A stretch of 46,649 nt of DNA from an uncultured euryarchaeote (GTDB taxonomy: Archaea; Thermoplasmatota; Poseidoniia; Poseidoniales; Poseidoniaceae): contig CALDPP010000034.1 of the NCBI GenBank assembly GCA_937911345.1, positions 1 through 46,649 of the forward strand, written 5' to 3'. The notes beneath the pieces are model-generated. The model had not been told where the DNA came from. It did not search any database and saw nothing but the letters and a program-made list of their open reading frames with translations. The stretch's first letter is position 1; every line of letters starts with the position of its first letter. Positions 3,089 through 46,649 of the stretch are shown here, one piece after another. The translations under genes were made by a program, and so were the position numbers.

Positions 3089-3796
3089 ATGAGCAATTCA
3101 GTTGAAGAGGCTGTAGCAGCGTTTTCGAACGGTTTACCAGTGTGCCTTTTTGATTCTGAGAAAAGGGAAGGAGAGACCGATTTACTATTCTCTGCAGAGC
3201 ACGCCACTCCAGCAACAATGAGGCAACTACGTCAAGACTGTGGTGGATTACTGTTCTTAGCGATTGGTCACGAAGTAGGCGAAAGATTTGGCCTTCCGTT
3301 CCTGCAAGATTTACATACACACAAAGAACTTGTGAAGCAGTTCGATGTCTTACAAGAATTGGTAACTAATGATTTACGATACGACTCACGCTCTGCATTC
3401 ACTTTGTCACTAAATCATCGAGATACTTATACGGGAATTACCGACAAAGATCGCTGCTTAACAACCAAGAGATTTGCTGAATTGACCAACGAGGTCTTCG
3501 ACCAAAATCTTAACGAAAAAGAGGCAAAAAAACTACTTGGCCAAGAATTTAGAACTCCAGGCCATATACCAGTATGTCGAGAGACAGAAGGTGGTCTATC
3601 ACGAAGACAAGGTCACACCGAACTTGCGGTTGGTTTGGCTAGACTATCAAAAGTCACGCCTGTCGTGATTGGGGCAGAGATGCTTCAGCCCGATGGTGAC
3701 CTAGCACTATCAGTCGAAGATGCTAGAAAGTGGGCCATTGAACGAGGAATACCATTCCTTGAAGGTGTAGATATTGTTCAGGCATTAAGCAACTAA
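3089..3796 (+). CDS. ribB: 3,4-dihydroxy-2-butanone 4-phosphate synthase
   Basis: DSEKREGETDLLFSAEHATP, LNHRDTYTGITDKDR, TPGHIPVCRETEGGLSRRQGHTELAVGLARL: characteristic DHBP synthase motifs. Confidence 0.92.
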   Translation: MSNSVEEAVAAFSNGLPVCLFDSEKREGETDLLFSAEHATPATMRQLRQDCGGLLFLAIGHEVGERFGLPFLQDLHTHKELVKQFDVLQELVTNDLRYDSRSAFTLSLNHRDTYTGITDKDRCLTTKRFAELTNEVFDQNLNEKEAKKLLGQEFRTPGHIPVCRETEGGLSRRQGHTELAVGLARLSKVTPVVIGAEMLQPDGDLALSVEDARKWAIERGIPFLEGVDIVQALSN

Positions 3797-3852
3797 AATA
3801 AATCGGTAGTATCATCAATATTATGTTACAGCACCAATATGGAGAGGATTTC

Positions 3853-4287
3853 ATGAAGGTCATGGCGGTAGGGGTTTTTGACTTACTTCATGCAGGACAT
3901 CTGCACTACCTTGAACAAGCAAAATCTCTAGGAAATCACCTAACAGTTGTGGTTGCTCACGATGATACAGTTAGAATAAGGAAGCATGAGCCTGTGACGA
4001 ACCATGACCTTAGGAGGCGTATGGTAGAGGGGCTAAAACCTGTTGACGAAGCAATAATCGGCAATTCACCAAATGTTTCAATTTTTGAAATCCTACCAGT
4101 GGTTAATCCTGATATAATCGCTTTAGGCTACGATCAGGAACATGCAGAAGATTCAATACGCATCAAATTAGCAGAATTAGGTTTTGATGAGATAACCGTT
4201 ACACGGGTTGAAGGATTAACAGATGATTTAGACGGGACAAGAAAGATAATTGCTAGAATTCTTGAACTAGCAAGGAACAACGACTGA
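3853..4287 (+). CDS. ribL: Archaeal-type FAD synthase / cytidylyltransferase (RibL family)
   Basis: MKVMAVGVFDLLHAGHLHYLEQAKSLGNHLTVVVAHD nucleotidyltransferase HxGH motif; ORF opens at 3823 but ATG 3853 follows a GGAGAGG-like RBS; lies in a rib cluster. Confidence 0.8.
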   Translation: MKVMAVGVFDLLHAGHLHYLEQAKSLGNHLTVVVAHDDTVRIRKHEPVTNHDLRRRMVEGLKPVDEAIIGNSPNVSIFEILPVVNPDIIALGYDQEHAEDSIRIKLAELGFDEITVTRVEGLTDDLDGTRKIIARILELARNND

Positions 4288-4296
4288 GGTGAAAGA

Positions 4297-4908
4297 ATGT
4301 TTACCGGAATCGTACAAGGAGTTGGCGAAGTTATCACCAAAACCTCCCATAATACGGTTACATCAATGACAATTAAATTACCAAATGTCAAGAGCTTAGC
4401 CATTGGTGCTAGCGTATCAATTAACGGAGTCTGCCTTACGGTGGTGTCTCTTGATTCAAATATTGTCCAGTTTGATATAATTGATGAAACCCTAAAAAGA
4501 ACGAACTTAGGAGATATATCAGTTGGTGATTTTGTCAATATTGAGAGGTCTTTGAAATTTGGCGACGAAGTCGGCGGTCATGTTTTATCAGGGCACATCT
4601 TTGATACAGGAATAATTAATTCTAAAGCAAAAAAAGGAGACCAAATGTCTCTAAGTATACTTGCTCCACCCTCAATCCAGAAATATTTAACCGAGAAAGG
4701 TTACATTGCCATAGACGGTATTTCTCTAACAGTTGGGGAAATCAAAGATGGCTGTTTTGATTTGCATATAATTCCTGAGACAATGCGCTTAACCATACTA
4801 GATTCTAAAGAAGTTGGTGACATAGTAAACATAGAGATTGATAGTAACACTCAATTAATTGTTGAGACTATTGAGAGATTGTTGGAAGAGAGAGGTGTAA
4901 CAAAATGA
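4297..4908 (+). CDS. ribE: Riboflavin synthase, bacterial two-lumazine-domain (alpha-subunit) type
   Basis: MFTGIVQGVGEV start, SINGVCLTV, GGHVLSGHIFDTG, then second repeat IDGISLTVGEI...IPETMRLT. Confidence 0.9.
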   Translation: MFTGIVQGVGEVITKTSHNTVTSMTIKLPNVKSLAIGASVSINGVCLTVVSLDSNIVQFDIIDETLKRTNLGDISVGDFVNIERSLKFGDEVGGHVLSGHIFDTGIINSKAKKGDQMSLSILAPPSIQKYLTEKGYIAIDGISLTVGEIKDGCFDLHIIPETMRLTILDSKEVGDIVNIEIDSNTQLIVETIERLLEERGVTK

Positions 4909-5291
4909 AGATTGCAGCAGTATGTGGTTCATTTCACAAGAAAGAGATTGAAGCCATGCTTGAATATGCCATAGATGAAGCAAAGAAGCACTCTATAGAA
5001 ATTTCAGAGGTAGTATGGGTTCCAGGATCTATGGAAGTTCCTCTAGCATTGAATCGTGTCATTGTAAATTATGATGCAGCAATATGTCTTGGAATTATTG
5101 AGAAAGGAGAAACACTACATGGCTCGGCAATGGGGAATGCAGTCATTAAGTCGGTTATCGACTTACAATTAGCACACAACAAACCAATTGGCCTAGGCAT
5201 TATTGGACCAGGGGCTGAACCTCACCACATAGAACCCAGATTAGAACCACATGCAAGGGCTGCAGTAAGTGCTGTACATACAATGAGTTAG
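4905..5291 (+). CDS. ribH: 6,7-dimethyl-8-ribityllumazine synthase
   Basis: VVWVPGSMEVPLAL, CLGIIEKGETLHGSAMGNAVIKSVIDLQLAHNKPIGLGII; ATGA overlap with ribE. Confidence 0.88.
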   Translation: MKIAAVCGSFHKKEIEAMLEYAIDEAKKHSIEISEVVWVPGSMEVPLALNRVIVNYDAAICLGIIEKGETLHGSAMGNAVIKSVIDLQLAHNKPIGLGIIGPGAEPHHIEPRLEPHARAAVSAVHTMS

Positions 5292-5333
5292 TGTAGGGAT
5301 ATTGTTCAATTAGTCGAACGCAATCGCAGAGTC

Positions 5334-7046
5334 ATGAACAAGTTGTCATATTTTTCTAAACCTAATGAGAAAAACCTGTCCACTTCGGAAGAACTGAGTA
5401 ATATATGGCAACAAGTAACTAAACTACGTTATGATGTATTTGCTGAAGAGTTACAGCAATACTCAACAAACGTCGAGAAGAAACTCGATGAGCCCGGGCA
5501 GCATTTTGTCACACTAAGTATCGGTGAGGAACTAATTGGTTATGTTAGTATAAACTCACCTAGCGATAGAAAATATCGATTAGAGAAGTATTTTGGTCGG
5601 GAAATTTTAGATGATATAACGAAAAAAGTAAGTAACAAAGCAGTAATTCACGAAGTAAGAGGTTTGACCATAAACCGCGCTTTTAGAAATCAAGGCTACG
5701 CTAGGCTATTGATGATGGCTGCGTTAAAGTTCTCTCATGAAAATGGTGCAGACAATATTATTGCGATGGGACATACTGAGGTATTGCCCATGTATCGAGC
5801 GATTGGTATGCATGTGTTTGAGGAACATCATGTCTCAGCAGGTGATGTTGTTTTCTTTCCGATGATTGTTGCTGTTGATCAATTGATGAAGCTTGCAGGT
5901 GATGACATTACTAATTTACAAATGCAGCATTTGGTTGAAAATGACGATGCTTGTTACCATGGTGGCGCATCATGGGATGAGAGTGGCTTCGATTTCACTC
6001 GCAGAAAAGAATTAGTTGTGGCAGATGTTCTAGATAGTCCATTTCCTCCTTGTCCTGAAGTAATGGAATTAATCACTGAAAATATAATCAGCAGTTGCCA
6101 TGAATCTCCACCGACTCAATGTGAACCACTAATTGAAAAGATTTCACAAGTTCGTGGCATACCTGAAAGTCATATTCTAGTTTCATCAGGTTCCTCATCA
6201 TTGATGTTTTCCTTAATGCCAAACCTGCTAAATAATGATTCAAGGGTCTTGATTTTATCGCCTATGTATGGTGAATATTTACACATTCTTACCCATTTAA
6301 TTGGATGTCATGTCACCCATTTTCCACTCCATCCAGAGGAAGGCTTTGTTATTGATTTTGCAAGTTTCGTTGAGGTTGCTAGAGACCATGATGCAGTGAT
6401 TATAGTCAATCCTAACAGCCCGACTGGAGTCTATGACTCTAATGTTAGTGAAATGATAACACATATTTTATCACAAAAAGAGAATAAAACAAATTGCAAA
6501 ATGATTTGGGTTGATGAGACATATATTGAATATGTCGAAGATGCAGTCTCACTCGAATCTCTAACCTCTCAACATGAAGAATTGATTGTTTGCAAAAGCA
6601 TGAGCAAGTGTTACGCGCTATCAGGTCTAAGAGTTGCTTATGCAGTTACTGCTAATGCCGCATTTTTACGTAGATTTATTCCACCTTGGTCGGTAAGTTT
6701 GCCAGCCCAAATAGGTGCTATTGCAGCACTTTCAAATGAGGAATACTATGCAGAACAATATTCAATTGTACATGAAAATAGAACCGAATTAAATAAACAA
6801 CTGGTTCAACTTGGTTTCAAAACATATCCTAGTGTGGCAAATTATATCCTAACCAAATTACCTGATTCAGTCGCTCATTCTTCGAATCAGTTTATCGCTC
6901 TGTGTCGCGAAAGAGATGTATTTGTCCGGGATGCAGAAAATATGGGCGTGACTCTAGATTCAAGATATGTCCGATTCGCCGTGAAAAGCAAGATTGAAAA
7001 CCAAAGAATCATTGATTGCCTTACAGATTTGCTAGGCAATAATTAG
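5334..7046 (+). CDS. Fusion: N-terminal GNAT/autoinducer-synthase-like acyltransferase + C-terminal PLP fold-type I aminotransferase (HisC/CobD-like)
   Basis: N-terminus WQQVTKLRYDVFAEELQQY...IHEVRGLTINRAFRNQGYARLLMMAALKFSHENGADNIIAMGHTEVLPMYRAIGMH; C-terminus VNPNSPTGVY, IWVDETYIEY, SMSKCYALSGLRVAYA (PLP Lys). Confidence 0.85.
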   Translation: MNKLSYFSKPNEKNLSTSEELSNIWQQVTKLRYDVFAEELQQYSTNVEKKLDEPGQHFVTLSIGEELIGYVSINSPSDRKYRLEKYFGREILDDITKKVSNKAVIHEVRGLTINRAFRNQGYARLLMMAALKFSHENGADNIIAMGHTEVLPMYRAIGMHVFEEHHVSAGDVVFFPMIVAVDQLMKLAGDDITNLQMQHLVENDDACYHGGASWDESGFDFTRRKELVVADVLDSPFPPCPEVMELITENIISSCHESPPTQCEPLIEKISQVRGIPESHILVSSGSSSLMFSLMPNLLNNDSRVLILSPMYGEYLHILTHLIGCHVTHFPLHPEEGFVIDFASFVEVARDHDAVIIVNPNSPTGVYDSNVSEMITHILSQKENKTNCKMIWVDETYIEYVEDAVSLESLTSQHEELIVCKSMSKCYALSGLRVAYAVTANAAFLRRFIPPWSVSLPAQIGAIAALSNEEYYAEQYSIVHENRTELNKQLVQLGFKTYPSVANYILTKLPDSVAHSSNQFIALCRERDVFVRDAENMGVTLDSRYVRFAVKSKIENQRIIDCLTDLLGNN

Positions 7047-7062
7047 AAGAATCAATGTAAAG

Positions 7063-7092
7063 ATTCAATAGGCGAGTTCTCCCTATTTGAAT
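7063..7092. other. Inverted repeat upstream of trxB
   Basis: ATTCAATAGG (7063-7072) / CCTATTTGAAT (7082-7092), 10-bp stem with one bulged T and 9-nt loop. Confidence 0.5.
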
Positions 7093-7105
7093 TGCAGGCG
7101 ATTGA

Positions 7106-8035
7106 ATGAGTGATGTTAGAGACGTAGTAATTATTGGTTCAGGGCCTGCAGGATATACTGCTGGATTATATACCGCAAGAGCAATGTTGGATCCACTAAT
7201 GTTTGCAGGATACATGTCCGGCGGTCAGCTAATGCTTACTTCAGACATAGAGAATTTCCCAGGCTATCCTCAAGGCATCGGTGGGCCAGAGATGATGATG
7301 CAACTGCGCGAACAAGCAGAGAGGTTCGGGCTAGAGGTGCAGGACAGAAATGTCGAATCGGTAGACCTATCGCAACGCCCATACAAAGTCACAGTGGAAG
7401 GAGAAGAATTCCTCGCAAATGCGATTATCATTTCGACGGGTGCTGAGTCAATTTGGCTAAATGCTCCCGGAGAGGCGGAACAAAAGGGCCGAGGTATTTC
7501 CACCTGTGCAACTTGTGATGGAGCCTTCTTCAAAGAGGAGGAAGTCTTGGTTATTGGTGGCGGTGATTCTGCCTGCGAAGAGGCAACTTTCTTGACTAGA
7601 TTCGCCTCAAAAGTCACCCTAATCCATCGAAGAGATGTTTTCAAGGCTAGTACGATAATGTATGAGCGTGCAGCAAATAATGACAAAATCGAGATTAGAA
7701 CTTTTAGACAAGTGAAAGAATGGTTATCTGATGATAATGGTTTGACTGGAGCAATTTTAGAGGATCCTAGAGATGGCTCAACAGAAGAAATCTCGGCAAC
7801 TGGTGCATTTATTGCTATAGGTCATAAGCCAATTACAGGGTTCCTCAATGGACAAGTTGAAACAGATGAGAATGGCTACATTATTCACAAACAACACACC
7901 ATGACCTCTGTTGAAGGAGTATTCGCTGCTGGAGACGTGGTAGATACTAGGTACAAACAAGCTATTACGGCTGCTGGAATGGGATGTCAAGCAGCAATTG
8001 ATGCTGAAAAATGGTTAGAAGAAAACCTCCACTGA
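7106..8035 (+). CDS. trxB: Thioredoxin reductase
   Basis: GSGPAGYTAGLYTARA, redox CATCDG, VIGGGDSACEEATFL, GVFAAGDVVDTRYKQAITAAGMG. Confidence 0.93.
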   Translation: MSDVRDVVIIGSGPAGYTAGLYTARAMLDPLMFAGYMSGGQLMLTSDIENFPGYPQGIGGPEMMMQLREQAERFGLEVQDRNVESVDLSQRPYKVTVEGEEFLANAIIISTGAESIWLNAPGEAEQKGRGISTCATCDGAFFKEEEVLVIGGGDSACEEATFLTRFASKVTLIHRRDVFKASTIMYERAANNDKIEIRTFRQVKEWLSDDNGLTGAILEDPRDGSTEEISATGAFIAIGHKPITGFLNGQVETDENGYIIHKQHTMTSVEGVFAAGDVVDTRYKQAITAAGMGCQAAIDAEKWLEENLH

Positions 8036-8075
8036 CAACCTGTTAATTCATCAATTAGCATACTCTCGCCGGTTC

Positions 8076-9227
8076 ATGGTCGACATGAATAGGTATGCAA
8101 GGCATGTCTCTTTGCCGGATGTTGGCCGTGAAGGACAAGAATTAATCAACAATTCGAGAATACTAGTCGTTGGCGCAGGGGGACTGGGCAGTCCTGTTTT
8201 ACTTTACCTTGCTGCCGCAGGAGTCGGAGAAATCGGCGTCATCGATGATGATTTAGTCGATTTATCTAATTTGCAAAGACAAATCATTCATGCGGAATCC
8301 GATGTCGGGTCATCAAAAGTAGAATCAGCAAAAGCTCAACTTTTGTCGATCAATTCAACAATAAAAGTAACCACATGGAATACAAGATTATCTCCTGACA
8401 ATGCTCAAGAGATTCTCAAAGATTGGGATGTAGTGGTCGATGGGACTGATAATATTCCAACTAGGTATCTTGTGGATGATATATGTAAAATAAATGGAAT
8501 TCCATGGATATATGGGTCAATCTATAGATTTGAAGGCCAAGCGAGTGTGTTCAATTATCAAGGTGGCCCCTGCTACCGGGATTTGTTCCCTGAACCTCCT
8601 CCAAGTAATGCGATTCCATCTTGTGCAGAGGGCGGTGTATTCGGAGTTCTCCCCGGAGTAATTGGATCTATACAAGCCACAGAAGCCATCAAGTTAATTC
8701 TCAATAGAGGTCAAAACCTGTCCGGTAGATTATTGATTTATGATGCCGAATCAATGGATTTCAAATCATTAACTTTTTCCAAAAATGAGGAGTCAAGTCC
8801 TAACCTTGAACAAGTAAGAAAGATGTTTGAGGACAACGGTTGGTGTGAAAAAATACCCAATAGCGATGGTGAAATTGAAGAACCGGCGAGTACTGGAAAT
8901 GGTATGTTCCACCACCTTTCCGTCGCACAATATCAGGAAAAGAAGGCAAATGGTTGGCAGCCTTTTTTGATAGATGTGAGGTCGGATTTAGAATACCAGC
9001 AAAAGCGCATATCATTTACTGACTTGCAAGTGCCACACGAAGAAATCTTGTCAAGGGTGAATGAGATACCAAAGGACCGCGATATTATTCTGTTGTGCAG
9101 AAGTGGTATGCGTTCGCAAATGGCTGCAATGTATTTGTCTCAAAGCGGATATGACAGTCAGAGTCTATACAATTTTGATGGTGGAATAATGGCTTGGAGT
9201 AAGGAAATTCCAAGTGATGTGGCTTGA
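8076..9227 (+). CDS. MoeB/ThiF-family E1-like adenylyltransferase with C-terminal rhodanese domain
   Basis: GAGGLGSPVLLYLAAAGVGEIGVIDDDLVDLSNLQRQIIH; SCAEGGVFGVLPGVIGS; rhodanese loop CRSGMRS. Confidence 0.88.
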   Translation: MVDMNRYARHVSLPDVGREGQELINNSRILVVGAGGLGSPVLLYLAAAGVGEIGVIDDDLVDLSNLQRQIIHAESDVGSSKVESAKAQLLSINSTIKVTTWNTRLSPDNAQEILKDWDVVVDGTDNIPTRYLVDDICKINGIPWIYGSIYRFEGQASVFNYQGGPCYRDLFPEPPPSNAIPSCAEGGVFGVLPGVIGSIQATEAIKLILNRGQNLSGRLLIYDAESMDFKSLTFSKNEESSPNLEQVRKMFEDNGWCEKIPNSDGEIEEPASTGNGMFHHLSVAQYQEKKANGWQPFLIDVRSDLEYQQKRISFTDLQVPHEEILSRVNEIPKDRDIILLCRSGMRSQMAAMYLSQSGYDSQSLYNFDGGIMAWSKEIPSDVA

Positions 9228-17268: not shown

Positions 17269-18417
17269 ATGGTCAACTTCAAACTGGACGATATGCAAGA
17301 GGGACTTAGAGACCTAGCTCGTGAATTTGCCCTTGATGAGGTTCGCCCAAATGCCGAGCACTGGGATGAAAATTCACAATATCCAAAGGAAGCTATTTCG
17401 GCTGCTCATGATATGGGAATTCTTAATCTGCATATCCCGGAGAAATATGGCGGAATGGGTTTAGGATGTATTGAGGAAGTTCTTGTTAATGAAGAACTTG
17501 CGTGGGGCGACCCTGGATTTGCTACTGCGGCTTATGCCACCGCACTTGCTTGTGCCCCTCTGATTACTGGTGCCACAGAAGAACAGAAAGAAATCTGGCT
17601 TAGAAAAGTTGCTGAAGAAGGCCAACTAGCCTCATATGCGGTTACTGAACCAGGTGCAGGATCAGATGTTGCAGCATGTAAGACCACTGCAGTTCTAGAC
17701 GGCGATGAATATGTCATCAATGGCGAGAAAATGTGGATTACAGGTGCGGGTTATTCTGATTTCTTTTTTGTTCTTGCCAAAACAGACCCTGATGCAGGGT
17801 ACCGGGGTATGTCTGGGTTCATAGTTGAAAAAGATGCAGAAGGGTTTTCATTGGGTAAAAAAGAGACAAATATGGGCCAAAGATGCTCAGACACAAGGTC
17901 AATTGTTTTTGATAATGTTAGAGTCAATAAGAACCAATTGATTGGGGAAAGCGAATCCGGAGGCTGGATGAATGCAATGAAGGCATTTGATCTGAGTCGT
18001 CCAAACATTGCTGCACATGCAACAGGATTGGCAAGGGCTTCTTACGAACATGCCTTGCAATATTCAAACGAAAGGATGACTTTTGGTAAGCCTCTACACA
18101 AGCATCAAGCAATTCAATTTATGCTGGCTGACATGAAAACTAAAATTGAAGCGTCAAGGATGTTAACTTGGAAATCTGCATTTGAATCAGATCAAGGAAT
18201 TCGTAATACTGAATCAGCCGCACATGCTAAGCGATTTGCCGCTGATACTGCAATGGAAGTTTCTACAGATGCGGTACAGGTTTTTGGTGGCTATGGCTAC
18301 TCCGAAGAATATCCAGTAGCTAGATTGATGAGAGCTGCTAAGGTCATGCAAATTTATGAGGGTTCTTCACAAGTTCAACGAATGATAATTGGACGTGAAA
18401 TAACCAAAGATTTCTGA
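17269..18417 (+). CDS. Acyl-CoA dehydrogenase
   Basis: SYAVTEPGAGSDVAACKTTA, GEKMWITGA, VQVFGGYGYSEEYPVARLMRAAKVMQIYEGSSQVQRMIIGREI. Confidence 0.92.
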   Translation: MVNFKLDDMQEGLRDLAREFALDEVRPNAEHWDENSQYPKEAISAAHDMGILNLHIPEKYGGMGLGCIEEVLVNEELAWGDPGFATAAYATALACAPLITGATEEQKEIWLRKVAEEGQLASYAVTEPGAGSDVAACKTTAVLDGDEYVINGEKMWITGAGYSDFFFVLAKTDPDAGYRGMSGFIVEKDAEGFSLGKKETNMGQRCSDTRSIVFDNVRVNKNQLIGESESGGWMNAMKAFDLSRPNIAAHATGLARASYEHALQYSNERMTFGKPLHKHQAIQFMLADMKTKIEASRMLTWKSAFESDQGIRNTESAAHAKRFAADTAMEVSTDAVQVFGGYGYSEEYPVARLMRAAKVMQIYEGSSQVQRMIIGREITKDF

Positions 18418-18433
18418 AAGCATTGAAGTCGAG

Positions 18434-19033
18434 GTGTTGTCTTTGTCAAAAGCTACGCCAGCAATCATTCTCAGTAGTGGCTTCAGTACACGCCTTGGAG
18501 AACCAAAATCATTGGTTCAAGTCAGTGGTAAGACTCTATTGTCTCATGCAGTAGAAAAGTTGCTATTCGCTGGCTGTAATCCAGTTGTAGTCGTTGTCAA
18601 CAAGGAACTCCAATTCGACTCAGTGTTGAATTCTAAAGGAGCCAACGTTGTGGTAAATAATAATCCAGAGAATGGTAGAACTGGTAGTCTAAAAGTGGCA
18701 TTGAATTCAATACTTGCTGATTTAGGAAGAATGCCACACTCAGTAATAATGTCTCCAATCGATAGGCCTGGTTGGAAAGCATCTCATGTCACACAATTAA
18801 TTGAGTCAGAGAGTTCCTCCTGTTTATATCAAGATGGGCGTAATGGGCATCCTGTAAAGTTAGTAAAGGATGACTTACTTGGCATAATGAATGCATCAGA
18901 TGATACTCCACTAAGAGATTTAGTCAAATTTGACAAGACTGAAGTTTTTGATGCTTTATTGTCTTTGAATGTCGATACGCCAGATGATTTAGTGGAACTC
19001 GACAAATATTCGGAATTCTTTGTTGAACTTTGA
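18434..19033 (+). CDS. MobA/MocA-like NTP transferase (candidate molybdopterin cytidylyltransferase)
   Basis: AIILSSGFSTRLGEPKSLVQVSGKTLLSHAVEKLL and MSPIDRPGW; adjacent to an XdhC-like gene; GTG/TTG start. Confidence 0.75.
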   Translation: MLSLSKATPAIILSSGFSTRLGEPKSLVQVSGKTLLSHAVEKLLFAGCNPVVVVVNKELQFDSVLNSKGANVVVNNNPENGRTGSLKVALNSILADLGRMPHSVIMSPIDRPGWKASHVTQLIESESSSCLYQDGRNGHPVKLVKDDLLGIMNASDDTPLRDLVKFDKTEVFDALLSLNVDTPDDLVELDKYSEFFVEL

Positions 19034-19071
19034 AACACAAAAAGTATGTGTAAAGAGTATTAGCACCGAAC

Positions 19072-19947
19072 ATGACGAAGCAGACGCTGGCTTGGGCGTT
19101 AGACAAGTTAGCTCTTAGGCGGAAAGTCGTTATCGCTAGCGTAGTCCAAACCTCTGGGAGTGTACCTGGTAAAGTCGGGGCAAGACTTGCAATCGCTGAA
19201 TCAATCGACGATTTTCACGGAACAGTTGGCGGTGCAGGATTGGAGATGAAAGTAATAGATAGGTGCAGAGAAATACTCGCAAATTTCGTTGAACCATATG
19301 GTGAAATTCAAACCTTCGGGCTAAATAAAGGTGCGAAGGGCTATGAAGTACAACCATTAGATTCACTTTGCGGGGGTAGAGTGACAGTGTCCATAGAAAT
19401 GATAGTTCCACCACCACATGTACTGATGATGGGCGGTGGCCACTGTGCTAACTCGCTGGCAAAAACCATAACTTCGCTTAATTGGAATCACTCAGTGACT
19501 GATTCAAGGCAAGAATATTGTGATGAGATTTCCTTCCCTAAAGCCACTGAGTTGCTGCATTCATCAGTTAATGGATTTCTCAATGGTGAAACATACGACT
19601 CAATTAAGCGATTTTCTGATATCTTATTACTTGGTCATGATTGGTCAGAAGACCAAGAAAGATTACTTGGATTACTACGACTATGTCAGGAAAATAAATC
19701 GGATCTTGATGGTATTAATTTTCCAAGAATTGGAGTTATCGGTAGTCGCAGCAAGTGGCAAGCATTTTCTAAAGCAGCAGAGCATGAGGGAATTGAAAGC
19801 AAACTCTTAGATCAAGTAATTTGTCCAATTGGCATTAATATTGGTGCAGAATCGCCGGAGGAGATTGCTATTGCGGTAACTGCTCAGATACTCTCACTGT
19901 CGAAAGGGGTATCTCCAGAGGATAAAAACTGGCGAGACTCAGATTGA
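19072..19947 (+). CDS. XdhC/CoxI-family molybdenum hydroxylase maturation factor
   Basis: VVQTSGSVPGKVGARLAI, VGGAGLEMKVI, HVLMMGGGHCANSLAKTITSLNWNHSVTDSRQEYCDE. Confidence 0.8.
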   Translation: MTKQTLAWALDKLALRRKVVIASVVQTSGSVPGKVGARLAIAESIDDFHGTVGGAGLEMKVIDRCREILANFVEPYGEIQTFGLNKGAKGYEVQPLDSLCGGRVTVSIEMIVPPPHVLMMGGGHCANSLAKTITSLNWNHSVTDSRQEYCDEISFPKATELLHSSVNGFLNGETYDSIKRFSDILLLGHDWSEDQERLLGLLRLCQENKSDLDGINFPRIGVIGSRSKWQAFSKAAEHEGIESKLLDQVICPIGINIGAESPEEIAIAVTAQILSLSKGVSPEDKNWRDSD

Positions 19948-26809: not shown

Positions 26810-27424
26810 ATGGGTGAGCAGTTGGTAGGTTCGGAATATGTCAAAATGACACCTGCTGCCGATAAATCCATTTGGAGTGCATCGGTCAACAAGAAGGAAT
26901 TTGAATTGCTAATTAATTCCAACGCAGTCTTATTAGATGTCTTGCGAGATCAGGTCGGTACTTTAGGTGTCAAGCGAGGTTGTGATTTAGGTACATGCGG
27001 ATGCTGTACAGTAATGATTGATGGTGAGCCTAGGTTGTCCTGTTTATGTTTAGCTGGACAAGTATCTGGCTCTGACATAATTACCGTTGAAGGACTAGCA
27101 GATGGTGCTCACCTTGCACCAATACAAGCCTGCTTTGCCAAATATGGTGGCTCACAGTGTGGTTTCTGTACGCCAGGCTTCTTAATTGCCTCACAGGCTC
27201 TACTCGAGGCAAATCCGTCGCCAACAGATGATGAGGTTGCCGAGGCAATTGAGGGCAACCTTTGTCGATGCACAGGATATCAACAAATTATTGAATCTAT
27301 CCAAGAAGCCGCAAAAATACATCGTGGAGAAAGCGCTGCACCACAACCAGCATCATCACCTCACCCGGATCCTCACCCTGATGGTCCGGGCGAGCCATCT
27401 ATGCCACCTGGCCATGCGAAGTGA
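26810..27424 (+). CDS. Molybdenum hydroxylase small subunit, 2x[2Fe-2S] (XdhC/CoxS/HcrC type)
   Basis: RGCDLGTCGCCTVMIDGEPRLSCL and QCGFCTPGFLIASQALL...GNLCRCTGYQQI; His/Pro-rich C-terminal tail. Confidence 0.93.
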   Translation: MGEQLVGSEYVKMTPAADKSIWSASVNKKEFELLINSNAVLLDVLRDQVGTLGVKRGCDLGTCGCCTVMIDGEPRLSCLCLAGQVSGSDIITVEGLADGAHLAPIQACFAKYGGSQCGFCTPGFLIASQALLEANPSPTDDEVAEAIEGNLCRCTGYQQIIESIQEAAKIHRGESAAPQPASSPHPDPHPDGPGEPSMPPGHAK

Positions 27425-30231
27425 GAATTATGTCAGCAGGATATCGTCAACAACCCGGTAATTCTTCCTCAAAAAGGAAGGACGGCAAGAGGGTTGCTGG
27501 CAAGCAAGTCTTTCCGCCGCCTGGTTCTGGTGGCTCTAGGCCTGTTATGGAGCCAAGAGATTTGAATTTCATTCCAGAATCAGTTGGTGGCAAAGAACCA
27601 CAACCTGCAGGGTCACACATTCATGATCGAATTAGAACAGGAACAGTTGTTGGAAAATCTCTACAATTAGTTGACTCAAATGCAAAAGTAACCGGACAGG
27701 CTTGGTATGGTGATGATGTTAGATTGCCAAACGAGACCATTGGTAAAATACTCCGGTCACCCCATCATTATGCAAAAATAAAATCAATTGACACCTCAAA
27801 AGTTGAGGCTCTGCCGGGAGTGATATCAGTCGCAACGGGGAAAGATGCACCTCATCATTTCGGAGTTCTTCCAGTGACAAAGGATGAACATGCAATGGCA
27901 GTGGAAAAAGTTAGGCACATGGGTGATTTAGTGGCATGCGTTTGTGCGGAAACTGAAGCAATTGCGATTGAGGCTTTGTCATTATTTGAGATAGAATGGG
28001 AACTTTTGGAACCAGTATTTGACCGCAAAAAAGGGCTAGAAGATGTCGATGAGCCAATACACTGGAGAGGAAAGTATCACCTATCAAAAACCAATGTTCA
28101 AAAGAGAGTGTTCCAAGAATTCGGTGACCGTTCTCTGGTTGATAATCCACATGCTTCATCTCACGGTAAGTGGAGTATGGAAGGAGTACATCATGGTTTT
28201 ACTGAACCGCATGCGGTAGTTGCACACTGGGATGCAAATGGCAGACTCCAACTGTACACCCCTCAACAAGTGCCACATTACACTCACAGAGCTCTATCAA
28301 CCGTCCTAGATGTTCCAATGCATCAAATAAACGTAGTAAGAACCTTCGTTGGAGGTGGATTTGGGGGCAAATCAGACCCATTCCCGCATGAAATGTGTGC
28401 AGCAATACTTGCTAGAAAATCGGGTAGGCCAGTGAGAATTACCTTTGACAGAGAGGAAGTTTACTGGATTAACCGTGGCAGACATCCAAGTGATATCGAA
28501 GTGAAAATGACGGCCGATGATGTTGGAAGAATTTCAGGATTTGATATTGATGCTCTAATCGATGGCGGCGGATTTGCATCATTCGGTCACGTCACTTCAT
28601 ACTACAATGGAGTACTCGCAACCGCCCCTTACGAATTAGGATCATTTCACTATACTGGTGCGAGAGTTTGGACTAACAAACCGGCTTCTGGTGCAATGCG
28701 TGGACATGGTGCAGTAAACACTAGATGCGCAGTAGAAGTTGGCCTTGATGAAATGGCAGAACAGATGAATGTCGATCCCATTGATTTGAGATTGGCAAAT
28801 TTATTGCCACCTCACAGCCGAACGATTACTGGTTTTAGGATAACTTCCAACGGAATGAGAGATGCACTTGAAAAGGTCAGAGAAGGGTCAAACTGGGACG
28901 AAAAGTTCCGTCAAATGCCGCTCGGCAAAGGAATCGGAGTAGGTTGTGGATTCTTTATCTCTGGATCTGGTCTACCTATTCATTGGGATCCTAATCGATT
29001 CCCGCATGCTACAGTGCACATCCAAGTTGATATGGATGGTGGAGTTACTGTCCACACCGGGGCTGCAGATATTGGACAAGGTTCTACTACTGCTGTTGCT
29101 CAAGTAGTCGCAGAAGTGCTCGCTCTACCGATAGAAATGATTCACGTGAGAAGCCATGAAAGTGATACTTCTCCAGTAGACTTGGGCTCATACTCCAGTA
29201 GAGTTACATTCATGAACGCAAATGCAGCAATAAGAGCTGCACTAGAGATAAGAGAGCAGATTCTAAAGGCTGCTTGGGATATTCTTGGCTATCATCCCAA
29301 CACACTAGTTTTGAATGACAGAAGAATTTACTACAAACATGACCCTTCAATTGGAGTATCATATCTAAAGGCGCTCCATAAAGCACAGGAAGACAAGGGC
29401 TCATTGATTGCAAGTGGTGCATACCGTTCACCCCCAATGGGTGGGGTTCACAAAGGTGCTGCAGCAGGACTTGCTCCTGCCTATTCTTTCTCAGCATATG
29501 TCGCCGAAGTTGATGTTGATGTAGAACTCGGCTTGGTTAAATGTACTAATGTTTGGGCTGCACATGACTGTGGCAAGGCGCTTAACCCACTTGCGGTAAA
29601 GGGCCAGATTATTGGTTCATGTCACATGGGGCTTGGTCAGGTTTTATCAGAAAAAATGGTCTACGGGAGAACAGGCCATTTACAAAATGCTAATTTATTG
29701 GAATACAAAATACCATCAGTCCACGAAATGCCTCACGTTGAGCCAATCATCATTGAATCATGTGACCCTGAAGGTCCGTTTGGGGCTAAAGAAGCAGGCG
29801 AGGGGCCTCTGCTACCAATTCTTCCTGCAGTCGTTAATGCCGTTTATGATGCAATAGGTGTTAGATATAGAGATTTACCACTTACCCCAGACATCGTATA
29901 CAAAGGGATTGAGCGAAAGCGTAAATCTATGAAATTAGATGATTGTCTAGAACTACCAAGCCCTAAATTACAACATGGGCCCATGCAAGCAGAGTTAGTT
30001 GCTAGAGCTGCTGAGCACAAATTACGTGACAAGGCGCGTCAAAGAACTGAAGACACATCTCATTATGTCAATGGCGTACTGTTTGGATTTGACCCAAACA
30101 TGCCGCTTGAGGATCAAGTAGATGGATGGAGAATGGCTACTGAGCCAGACCCAGAACAATTAGCAGAATTAGGCTTAGCTGGCCGAGCCTGGCTCAAGAA
30201 AACTCAACGAGAGATGGGAGATGATTCATGA
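27421..30231 (+). CDS. Molybdenum hydroxylase large (Mo-pterin) subunit
   Basis: VTGQAWYGDDVRLPN, GGGFGGKSDPFPHEM, PASGAMRGHGAVNTRCAVEVGLDEMA, GAADIGQGS, GPFGAKEAGEGP (putative catalytic Glu); GTGA overlap with small subunit. Confidence 0.92.
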   Translation: MRIMSAGYRQQPGNSSSKRKDGKRVAGKQVFPPPGSGGSRPVMEPRDLNFIPESVGGKEPQPAGSHIHDRIRTGTVVGKSLQLVDSNAKVTGQAWYGDDVRLPNETIGKILRSPHHYAKIKSIDTSKVEALPGVISVATGKDAPHHFGVLPVTKDEHAMAVEKVRHMGDLVACVCAETEAIAIEALSLFEIEWELLEPVFDRKKGLEDVDEPIHWRGKYHLSKTNVQKRVFQEFGDRSLVDNPHASSHGKWSMEGVHHGFTEPHAVVAHWDANGRLQLYTPQQVPHYTHRALSTVLDVPMHQINVVRTFVGGGFGGKSDPFPHEMCAAILARKSGRPVRITFDREEVYWINRGRHPSDIEVKMTADDVGRISGFDIDALIDGGGFASFGHVTSYYNGVLATAPYELGSFHYTGARVWTNKPASGAMRGHGAVNTRCAVEVGLDEMAEQMNVDPIDLRLANLLPPHSRTITGFRITSNGMRDALEKVREGSNWDEKFRQMPLGKGIGVGCGFFISGSGLPIHWDPNRFPHATVHIQVDMDGGVTVHTGAADIGQGSTTAVAQVVAEVLALPIEMIHVRSHESDTSPVDLGSYSSRVTFMNANAAIRAALEIREQILKAAWDILGYHPNTLVLNDRRIYYKHDPSIGVSYLKALHKAQEDKGSLIASGAYRSPPMGGVHKGAAAGLAPAYSFSAYVAEVDVDVELGLVKCTNVWAAHDCGKALNPLAVKGQIIGSCHMGLGQVLSEKMVYGRTGHLQNANLLEYKIPSVHEMPHVEPIIIESCDPEGPFGAKEAGEGPLLPILPAVVNAVYDAIGVRYRDLPLTPDIVYKGIERKRKSMKLDDCLELPSPKLQHGPMQAELVARAAEHKLRDKARQRTEDTSHYVNGVLFGFDPNMPLEDQVDGWRMATEPDPEQLAELGLAGRAWLKKTQREMGDDS

Positions 30232-31205
30232 TGCTAATGCCACCATTTACTCTTCATCATCCAGGTAGCATTGAACAGGCAGTATCGATTGCGTCCGATT
30301 TAATGTCTAAAGGAGAAGAATTTGACTGGGTTGCAGGTGGGACTGATGTCCTGCCAAACTACAAATGGCGTATCAATCCTAAACCCCATGTTATCTCACT
30401 AGCTAAGATTCCTGAAGCAAACCAGGTCACTCCATACGAGATTGGCTGTATGACCAAATTATCAACGCTTAAAGAAGAAAATGGTATTCACCCACTGATT
30501 GCAGAGGCAGCATCAAAAATCGCCTCTTCACTTATTAGAAAAAGTGCAACAGTTGGTGGCAACCTCTGCCTAGACACCAGGTGTTTTTGGTATAATCAAA
30601 GTGAAGATTGGCGTCGCTCGATAGATTGGTGTCATAAAGCAGATTGCGGAACTGGGGCTGATTGCCGCGTAATACCAAATCAAAACACCTTGTGTGTAGC
30701 GACCTATCAAGGCGATTTGGCACCTAATTTCATGGCACTAGGGGCTCAAGTCACCTTAATTGGGCCAGAAGGGGAGAGAACTATTGCTTTGAGTGAATTT
30801 TACCAACTCGATGGAATGAAGAAGAATGTACTTCTGCCTGGCGAATTTATGCTGAAAGTAACATTGCCAAAAGACTCCTTCGATTACACAGGTAGTTATC
30901 AAAAGTTACGCGTTCGGGAATCTTGGGATTTTCCGGAGGCAGGAGTCTCTGCGGTATGGAAGAAAGGCGACTATTCAACGTTGAGGATCGCCTCAACTGC
31001 TTTGGAATCTATTCCTAAAACCCATGAAGAGCAAGTTTCACCTCTTGCTGCAGCATGGCAAAAAGGGACAAGTTTGAGCGAGTTATCCGATGCGGTGAGA
31101 AAGTCGGTTAAACCAGTAAACAATACTGCTCTTCCACCAAACTATCGTAAGTCAGTAGTTAGGATTTTGACCAAGAGAGCACTAAAAAACATCGGATGTG
31201 AGTAA
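30228..31205 (+). CDS. Molybdenum hydroxylase FAD-binding medium subunit with HcrB-like Cys-rich insertion
   Basis: WVAGGTDVLPN, SATVGGNLCLDTRCFWYNQSEDWRRSIDWCHKADCGTGADCRVIPNQNTLCVATYQGDLAPNFMALGAQ; ATGA overlap. Confidence 0.9.
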   Translation: MMLMPPFTLHHPGSIEQAVSIASDLMSKGEEFDWVAGGTDVLPNYKWRINPKPHVISLAKIPEANQVTPYEIGCMTKLSTLKEENGIHPLIAEAASKIASSLIRKSATVGGNLCLDTRCFWYNQSEDWRRSIDWCHKADCGTGADCRVIPNQNTLCVATYQGDLAPNFMALGAQVTLIGPEGERTIALSEFYQLDGMKKNVLLPGEFMLKVTLPKDSFDYTGSYQKLRVRESWDFPEAGVSAVWKKGDYSTLRIASTALESIPKTHEEQVSPLAAAWQKGTSLSELSDAVRKSVKPVNNTALPPNYRKSVVRILTKRALKNIGCE

Positions 31206-45677: not shown

Positions 45678-45784
45678 CTATTTTAGTTATTGAGACCAAA
45701 ATCACCCAAGGAATAGATTCCAATGATTCATTTTTCCCTAGTATAACAGTGAAAGTTCAAGTCTTTAGTTACAGTCCGATTGGT

Positions 45785-46649
45785 ATGGAAGAGAAGGGTG
45801 ACTCGGGTAGAATGACCTATGGCAATTATCTTCGTTTAGAAGAAATGCTGAAATTGCAAGAGGGGCCTAATGGTTACTCTCCTGAGCCTTGTAATGATGA
45901 AAAACACTTCATTATCGTTCATCAAGCGTTTGAGTTATGGTTCAAACTTGTGATTTCGGAGTTGAAAGAAGTACACAAATTAATGGATAGCGAAAAAATA
46001 AGTGAGCAATCTATGCCAAAAATAGTTCGTCACCTCAATCGAGTTACAGAGGTGTTTGATTTAATGTCACAACAATGGAAAGTTATGGAAACTTTAAGCC
46101 CGCAGGATTTTTTATCATTTAGAGATAGGCTAGGGACATCTTCTGGCTTTGAATCTTGGCAGTTACGTCAAATTGAGATTATGTTAGGACTTGAAAAGCA
46201 GCAAAGGGATGCTGGAATGGATCCATTAAGTCACATGAAGCGCCTAGAAAGTGAAGGTAAAATATCCTCAAATGTATTGACTGAATTCGAGATTATGATA
46301 GAATCTCCATCACTCAACGACTTGCTGACAAATTGGCTTTCACGGACTCCGATAAATGGCTCACTACCAACAGAATCAAACGATAATGAGGTGGTTTCTA
46401 GTTATATTAACGGGCACTTAGATGCAATGAATGAACATTCAAAGATGGTAATTTCGCATTTCAAGTCGATTGGCCACGGTAATGAATCAACACTCGGAGA
46501 CCGTCTACAGAAGTCAATTCAAGGTGCTAGAGAGTTTCTAATTCCAAATGGTGAAATAAATCGTTCAAGAGCGGGACTATTGTTTATTGAATCCTATCGC
46601 AATCTCCCGTTGTTATCTTGGCCTAGAACACTAATAGATTCATTCGTCA
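45785..46649 (+). CDS. Tryptophan 2,3-dioxygenase, C-terminus truncated by right edge
   Basis: Absent from ORF track (no stop in window). MEEKGDSGRMTYGNYLRLEEMLKLQ...DEKHFIIVHQAFELWFKLVISELKEV...VMETLSPQDFLSFRDRLGTSSGFESWQLRQIEIMLG...SRAGLLFIESYRNLPLLSWPRTLID. In-frame GTG at 45749 is an alternative start. Confidence 0.88.
   Translation, partial: MEEKGDSGRMTYGNYLRLEEMLKLQEGPNGYSPEPCNDEKHFIIVHQAFELWFKLVISELKEVHKLMDSEKISEQSMPKIVRHLNRVTEVFDLMSQQWKVMETLSPQDFLSFRDRLGTSSGFESWQLRQIEIMLGLEKQQRDAGMDPLSHMKRLESEGKISSNVLTEFEIMIESPSLNDLLTNWLSRTPINGSLPTESNDNEVVSSYINGHLDAMNEHSKMVISHFKSIGHGNESTLGDRLQKSIQGAREFLIPNGEINRSRAGLLFIESYRNLPLLSWPRTLIDSFV

Follow-up and report, generated by a model that had tools for sequence, protein, structure and literature searches.

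A probable 4-hydroxybenzoyl-CoA reductase-type molybdenum enzyme with a predicted [4Fe-4S] loop in Poseidoniales (Marine Group II) archaea

Three genes on the 46,649-nt contig CALDPP010000034.1 of a Poseidoniales (Marine Group II, MGII) archaeon (the whole contig, designated here as the window, was analysed) are interpreted as the subunits of a ferredoxin-linked enzyme of the 4-hydroxybenzoyl-CoA reductase (4-HBCR) type, which acts on CoA thioesters and is neither a xanthine nor a CO dehydrogenase; the probability of this reading is estimated at about 60%. MGII archaea are abundant in surface seawater, and the gene of the FAD subunit belongs to the near-universal core of Poseidoniales: it is present in 142 of 146 genomes and in 33/33 of the best ones, with one copy in nearly all of them. 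As far as sequence can indicate, the enzyme has the ligand set of a [4Fe-4S] cluster, a place in the 4-HBCR-type clade, the conserved Tyr and Glu of the active site, and mocA-xdhC maturation genes.

All three genes lie on the + strand, and the 4-HBCR model is the top NCBIfam model for each product, with the equivalog cut-off missed in every case. The small subunit (26810..27424) was recognized by TIGR03193 (175.6 bits, cut-off 257.8), Pfam Fer2_2, and its motifs. The HcrA-like large subunit of 936 aa (27421..30231) scored 748.8 bits with TIGR03194 (cut-off 994.55) and matched best the Thauera aromatica HcrABC structure (PDB 1rm6_A, E 5e-170). The HcrB-like FAD subunit (30228..31205), translated as a single open frame of 325 aa, contains Pfam FAD_binding_5, matches CO_deh_flav_C under that model's cut-off, and has TIGR03195 as the top model (227.6 bits, cut-off 404.55), which none of the 146 Poseidoniales genomes exceeded; its top PDB match both by sequence (140.6 bits) and by predicted fold is 1rm6_B. 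The PaoC model did not reach its cut-off either (290 of 1180 bits).

In phylogenetic trees, which include one characterised Hcr on a long branch (Thauera) and few bacterial rows, the archaeal large subunits group with Thauera (100/98) apart from PaoABC and XdhABC, and the FAD subunits are joined to Thauera HcrB (97/87) and separated from the PaoB group. Matches to the FAD subunit in a plasmid collection were about 30% identical or less, and those fetched were PaoB-like, so the Hcr tree was not broadened by them. The original prediction had regarded a place in a characterised clade with known substrate as evidence against it; the large-subunit phylogeny that it called for put the proteins as sister to 4-HBCR, below the equivalog cut-offs. 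Membership in the 4-HBCR-type clade is considered highly probable. Similarity to Thauera HcrABC extends to the three subunit types, while the large subunits of the Poseidoniales compared are only about 40–45% identical to Thauera HcrA and carry long N- and C-terminal extensions (approximately 75 and 100 aa in the window). Closer relatives, with 52–57% identical large subunits, are found in other Thermoplasmatota, where HcrCAB-like operons (e.g., L137, L138, and L144) have the same subunit order and a four-Cys loop.

The large-subunit active site is of the same type. The motif SGAMRGHG, read in the original prediction in place of the CoxL AYxCSFR motif, is indeed present and corresponds to CGAMRGHG at the same place in Thauera HcrA; the lack of AYxCSFR, the model scores, and the tree together rule out a CO dehydrogenase. 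Tyr395 (codon 28603..28605, +) is the counterpart of the catalytic Thauera Tyr326; among the loci examined, Tyr occupies this position in 93/93 Poseidoniales and in 9/9 other Thermoplasmatota. Glu794 (29800..29802, +), which corresponds to Thauera Glu726 and is the catalytic Glu general to the xanthine oxidase family, is likewise kept in 93/93 Poseidoniales, and an SGxxxPxHW-type loop is common to Thauera and Poseidoniales large subunits and is not found in XdhA or PaoC.

The same architecture may work in the opposite direction, as an oxidative hydroxylase or dehydrogenase of an N-heteroaromatic, aldehyde, or acyl-CoA substrate with electrons passing from FAD via [4Fe-4S] to ferredoxin or another carrier, and such an enzyme is regarded as a rather unlikely but substantial alternative. 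The E. coli periplasmic aldehyde oxidoreductase PaoABC, an oxidative member of the xanthine oxidase family, carries a Cys-rich loop in its FAD subunit at the same alignment place, and electron exit via this cluster to ferredoxin or another carrier has been considered for it. However, PaoABC differs in loop pattern and active-site residues and forms a separate clade, both archaeal subunits cluster with Thauera Hcr and not with PaoBC, and XdhA, PaoC, and PaoC-like proteins from plasmids have Ala, Gly, or Trp in place of Tyr326. The 4-HBCR-type reading is supported by small ferredoxins found in the window's own genome (86% complete). A ferredoxin reductant of PFOR type was not found in that genome, which is in favor of oxidation, as is the description of MGII as obligate aerobes (PMC6336850). 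The window was also said to encode O2-using enzymes, and of the two named TDO is present (partial, from 45749), while the acyl-CoA dehydrogenase, although present, is not itself O2-using. TDO is near-universal in Poseidoniales while kynureninase is nearly absent from the order, and with it the kynureninase route that would follow TDO is essentially missing; a heteroaromatic compound is for this reason conceivable as the substrate.

Maturation genes of the molybdenum cofactor are located upstream on the same strand. The acyl-CoA dehydrogenase gene (17269..18417, +; Pfam), usually syntenic with mocA-xdhC in Poseidoniales, precedes a MocA-like molybdenum cofactor cytidylyltransferase for MCD synthesis (18434..19033, +), assigned by Pfam NTP_transf_3 and synteny with TIGR03310 at 72.7 bits under the cut-off of 186.45, and an XdhC-family Moco sulfuration/insertion chaperone (19072..19947, +; Pfam XdhC_C and XdhC_CoxI). 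A MoeB/ThiF-rhodanese protein (8076..9227, +; Pfam ThiF and Rhodanese, NCBIfam MoeB models) likely participates in molybdopterin synthase activation, and the cofactor of the large subunit is presumably molybdopterin as MCD. In most other Thermoplasmatota loci fetched mocA-xdhC adjoins hcrCAB in one cluster, and at those annotated no catabolic neighbours were recognised save one aldehyde dehydrogenase. The xdhC/yagS annotations in MGII literature (PMC9723583) imply a xanthine (purine) dehydrogenase, for which family-level similarity and the xanthine/uracil permease transcribed by MGIIb may be cited; this identity was rejected as very improbable on account of the motif, the tree, in which E. coli XdhA branches far away, the lack of the loop in E. 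coli XdhB, and the model scores, XdhA reaching 511 bits (cut-off 780) versus 749 for 4-HBCR and XdhB 97 (cut-off 310) versus 228.

The FAD subunit contains Cys at positions 74, 114, 119, 135, 140, 146, 156, and 324, including all six that had been claimed, and these six fall within 43 residues (114–156; 30567..30695, +), a clustering seen in 0.34% of residue-position shuffles. In the alignment with Thauera HcrB, Cys119 (30582..30584, +), Cys135 (30630..30632, +), Cys146 (30663..30665, +), and Cys156 (30693..30695, +) pair one-to-one with C122, C138, C146, and C155, which are reportedly the [4Fe-4S] ligands (Unciuleac 2004). The step of 16 between C119 and C135, noticed earlier as resembling HcrB, equals the C122–C138 step; the Thauera pattern is C-x15-C-x7-C-x8-C, and the Poseidoniales spacing is 15-10-9, that is, three residues longer between the second and third ligands and one longer between the third and fourth, in contrast to the Thauera-like loop length of other Thermoplasmatota. 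Loss of these residues in close orthologs had been named as contrary evidence; C119, C135, C140, C146, and C156 are kept in 99/99 aligned Poseidoniales homologues, C114 is kept wherever readable among them, and Cys119 is also found in 7/7 loop-bearing Thermoplasmatota of the alignment and in all further loops listed. C114 was dismissed as a ligand because it is Ala in the Poseidoniales locus L199 and Leu or Met in other Thermoplasmatota.

An extra thiol is specific to Poseidoniales: Cys at 138 and/or 140 (Cys140, 30645..30647, +) was found in 152/152 scanned Poseidoniales loci (127 distinct contexts) and in neither Thauera nor any other Thermoplasmatota loop examined. In this wider scan strict invariance of C140 was ruled out, as Ala or Glu stands there in one genus where position 138 is Cys. 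Alignment, family models, the top PDB match, Cys conservation, and trees agree on the HcrB-like loop proposed in the original prediction, and binding of a [4Fe-4S] cluster by the FAD subunit is predicted with high confidence. A structural (e.g., zinc) or degenerate site without a redox cluster has very little probability, since the four Cys in Thauera register are invariant in Poseidoniales and in other loop-bearing Thermoplasmatota, despite the 6-7 Cys per Poseidoniales loop, exceeding the need of one cluster, and an AlphaFold loop with pLDDT under 50 and no usable geometry.

According to the 4-HBCR-type reading, the three genes would form a heterotrimeric Mo-flavo-Fe-S enzyme, of which the large subunit would carry Mo-MCD, the small subunit two [2Fe-2S] clusters, and the FAD subunit FAD plus one [4Fe-4S] cluster bound by Cys119, 135, 146, and 156. 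Ferredoxin would dock at the [4Fe-4S] cluster and electrons would pass through FAD and two [2Fe-2S] clusters to Mo, as in Thauera, and the neighbouring Cys138/140 may serve to tune the [4Fe-4S] cluster or to protect it in oxic water. The substrate would be an acyl-CoA thioester, either aromatic or conjugated in another way, that is reductively dehydroxylated or deaminated; a CoA thioester is slightly favored, and the reductive direction is proposed tentatively, at a little under even odds. Reductive dehydroxylation by a member of the xanthine oxidase family has been reported a second time, for the Enterocloster urolithin C dehydroxylase Ucdh, with 4-HBCR as its closest characterised relative; its medium subunit is described only as binding FAD, with no mention of an extra cluster (PMC12771579).

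The genomic partners of Hcr are a 4-HBA-CoA ligase and benzoyl-CoA reductase; among 60 Poseidoniales genomes no benzoate-CoA ligase was found above cut-off (0/60), and BcrB was absent from 58, with a BcrB-like protein in 2, which counts against the 4-HBCR-type reading. Unexpectedly, benzoyl-CoA-reductase/had/oah clusters were observed in three Poseidoniales genomes and one class-mate, and one contig of this class-mate (G148) combines hcr-type genes with bcr-type subunits and with had and oah genes that exceed curated cut-offs. In the few Poseidoniales with a bcr-had-oah cluster the product could feed benzoyl-CoA dearomatisation; most hosts, unlike Thauera, lack benzoyl-CoA reductase, and therefore the product would have to go elsewhere there. 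The complete picture of a core ferredoxin-driven aryl-CoA dehydroxylase/deaminase in oxic surface water, with an O2-adapted loop with added Cys and a minority of hosts coupling it to dearomatisation, is speculative and unlikely to hold in every part.

In summary, this analysis adds to the original prediction a Poseidoniales core gene, a lineage-specific extra thiol, and gene contexts of aromatic-CoA type in other members of the class. The Moco pathway of Poseidoniales has been noted without an assigned enzyme (PMC6461757), and a near-universal 4-HBCR-type Mo enzyme gives it a concrete use and makes it doubtful that the annotation stands for xanthine catabolism (PMC9723583). As a natural variation the extra Cys is clean and testable, and it concerns a low-potential Fe-S site in an aerobe. 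The benzoyl-CoA-reductase clusters in a few Poseidoniales challenge the statement that signs of anaerobic metabolism are collectively missing from MGII (PMC6336850). These data suggest that a redox step on aromatic compounds or acyl-CoA has been overlooked in archaea thought to be strictly aerobic.

The FAD subunit of the hcr locus (30228-31205, + strand, 325 aa), which carries Pfam FAD_binding_5 and a CO_deh_flav_C match under the curated cut-off, and the HcrA-like molybdopterin large subunit (27421-30231, + strand, 936 aa) have their top PDB matches by sequence in chains B (140.6 bits) and A (E 5e-170) of 1rm6, the 4-hydroxybenzoyl-CoA reductase (HCR) of Thauera aromatica. In a structure search with the predicted fold of the FAD subunit 1rm6_B also ranks first; the cysteine loop of this model has pLDDT < 50, and thus the model is uninformative on cluster geometry. 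Long N- and C-terminal extensions of the large subunit (27421-27645 and 29926-30228) lie outside the region aligned with Thauera HcrA.

In the tree of 47 large subunits all Poseidoniales proteins form one clade (100/100) nested in a Thermoplasmatota clade, to which Thauera HcrA is sister (100/98), while XdhA and PaoC are placed outside this group; the exact sister relation to Thauera is provisional, since few bacterial Hcr proteins were sampled and the Thauera branches are long. The FAD-subunit tree is concordant, uniting Thauera and the archaeal loop-bearing proteins (97/87) and setting the PaoB group apart. Residues Y395 and E794, equivalents of Thauera Tyr326 and Glu726, are invariant in 93 of 93 Poseidoniales large subunits; Tyr326 of Thauera HcrA is presumably an active-site residue with a functional role, and at the position of Tyr395 E. 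coli XdhA and PaoC and the PaoC-like proteins from plasmids have Ala, Gly or Trp instead. The GAMRGHG loop and the SGxxxPxHW segment are common to Thauera HcrA and the window's large subunit, whereas XdhA and PaoC are without them. CO dehydrogenase, already thought unlikely in the original prediction, is excluded, as the motif of the aerobic enzyme was not found in the large subunit.

The loop cysteines, which had been read as evidence of an HcrB-like extra [4Fe-4S] cluster, were found where predicted, at 114, 119, 135, 140, 146 and 156 (six of the eight Cys of the FAD subunit), and the likeness to HcrB holds: in the phmmer alignment C119, C135, C146 and C156 pair with Thauera C122, C138, C146 and C155, which are reportedly the [4Fe-4S] ligands in Thauera (Unciuleac et al. 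2004). These four are kept in 99/99 aligned Poseidoniales homologues, in all seven loop-bearing FAD subunits that other Thermoplasmatota contribute to the alignment, and in the additional loops tabulated. The first 75 loci are mildly biased, because the one genome search that supplied them used a set of six peptide patterns that included one from the loop itself; the loci chosen by FAD-subunit HMM match are free of this bias, and all 40 fetched from that set match the loop pattern. C114 is not strictly conserved (Ala in one locus, L199) and is an unlikely cluster ligand.

Compared with Thauera and other Thermoplasmatota, the Poseidoniales loop is three residues longer from ligand 2 to ligand 3 and one residue longer from ligand 3 to ligand 4. 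Every Poseidoniales loop scanned has at least one additional Cys (138 and 140 in 56 of 127 distinct contexts, 140 alone in 66, 138 alone in 5), which is absent from all loops examined from Thauera and other Thermoplasmatota. The sole departure from Cys140 observed is genus g11 of family f2 (L133, L161-L165), with Cys at 138 and Ala or Glu at 140. The additional thiol may possibly serve in redox tuning, in protection or as an alternative ligand.

The FAD-subunit model was matched in 142 of 146 Poseidoniales genomes, including 33/33 with completeness of at least 90%, almost always in single copy, the rare exceptions being mostly split frames; any large-subunit relative was found in 126 of 293 genomes of the phylum sample. 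The hcrA product is the sole xanthine-oxidase-family large subunit found in the window's own genome; apart from it, a 778-aa FdhF/YdeP-like molybdopterin oxidoreductase of the DMSO-reductase family (PF00384; L151 7679-10015, G000:C70) is the one match found there to a family of large Moco proteins. In most fetched loci of other Thermoplasmatota the genes are adjacent in the order mocA-xdhC-hcrC-hcrA-hcrB; in Poseidoniales mocA and xdhC, usually accompanied by an acyl-CoA dehydrogenase gene (17269-19947 for the three in the window), lie up to ~13 kb upstream of hcr, with protease and other genes intervening. The mocA/xdhC arrangement fits an MCD- and XdhC-dependent enzyme. Further upstream, the window has genes for riboflavin biosynthesis, one for a thioredoxin-reductase-like protein and moeB (3089-9227); their order upstream of hcr recurs in several loci from the second Poseidoniales family (L123-L126, L133).

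The enzyme type is already known, and membership in 4-hydroxybenzoyl-CoA reductase proper is not claimed, since the equivalog cut-offs were missed and pathway partners are generally lacking. Among 60 Poseidoniales genomes none has a benzoate-CoA ligase over the cut-off and BcrB was not found in 58, so that the general role of the enzyme is not in the classic 4-hydroxybenzoate pathway. The MGIIb xdhC/yagS genes have been interpreted as xanthine catabolism (PMC9723583), which for this hcr locus is unlikely by the model scores obtained here. The most likely substrate would be a CoA thioester (probability about 0.55). Tryptophan 2,3-dioxygenase (TDO; 45749-46648 in the window) occurs in 58 of 60 sampled Poseidoniales and kynureninase over the cut-off in 1 of 60, making heteroaromatic substrates candidates.

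In the most likely mechanism a dicluster ferredoxin would exchange electrons with the [4Fe-4S] cluster, followed in the chain by FAD, two [2Fe-2S] clusters and Mo; small ferredoxins are encoded in the window's own genome. In Thauera HCR electrons flow inward, reductively. For Poseidoniales the reductive direction falls somewhat short of even odds: MGII have been characterised as obligately aerobic (PMC6336850), and a search of the window's own genome (86% complete) gave no PFOR-type enzyme.

The HCR-type enzyme is tied to aromatic-CoA chemistry in the class by an island in one genome and by gene clusters in three others. The former, G148, belongs to another family of the class, outside Poseidoniales, and has on one contig (G148:C5:46500-100013; L159, L135, L160) the C and A genes of an HCR-type enzyme (L135), a FAD-subunit gene of this type whose product has the 4-Cys loop (L160) and aromatic-degradation genes: 6-hydroxycyclohex-1-ene-1-carbonyl-CoA dehydrogenase (had; 437 bits vs cut-off 339), 6-oxocyclohex-1-ene-1-carbonyl-CoA hydrolase (oah; 578 bits vs 464), bcr-type subunits, hydantoinase A/B, family III CoA-transferase, and methylmalonyl-CoA-mutase-like, AFOR and indolepyruvate-oxidoreductase-like genes. 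This set presumably resembles anaerobic indoleacetate/benzoyl-CoA degradation, and the island looks like a putative archaeal route from tryptophan/indoleacetate to benzoyl-CoA. In three Poseidoniales genomes, each with the hcr FAD subunit, conserved bcrC-bcrB-two ATPases-dch-had-oah clusters were found (L201, G017:C5:30000-49900; L202, G046:C1:1-19900; L203, G094:C110:12000-31900), encoding BcrC/BcrB-like proteins, two BcrA/D-type ATPases, a dienoyl-CoA-hydratase-like protein, Had and Oah, adjoined by a tryptophanase/tyrosine-phenol-lyase-family gene. By tetranucleotide composition the G017 cluster is nearest to the hcr locus of G017 itself, evidence against misbinning in this genome.

Elsewhere in Thermoplasmatota, the Yaplasmales are reported to carry benzoyl-CoA reductase genes (PMC9239135). 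As far as the open literature was searched, it is new that almost all Poseidoniales have an HCR-type enzyme, that its loop bears extra Cys in this order and that some members carry benzoyl-CoA-reductase clusters; the clusters are unexpected in a group described as obligately aerobic.
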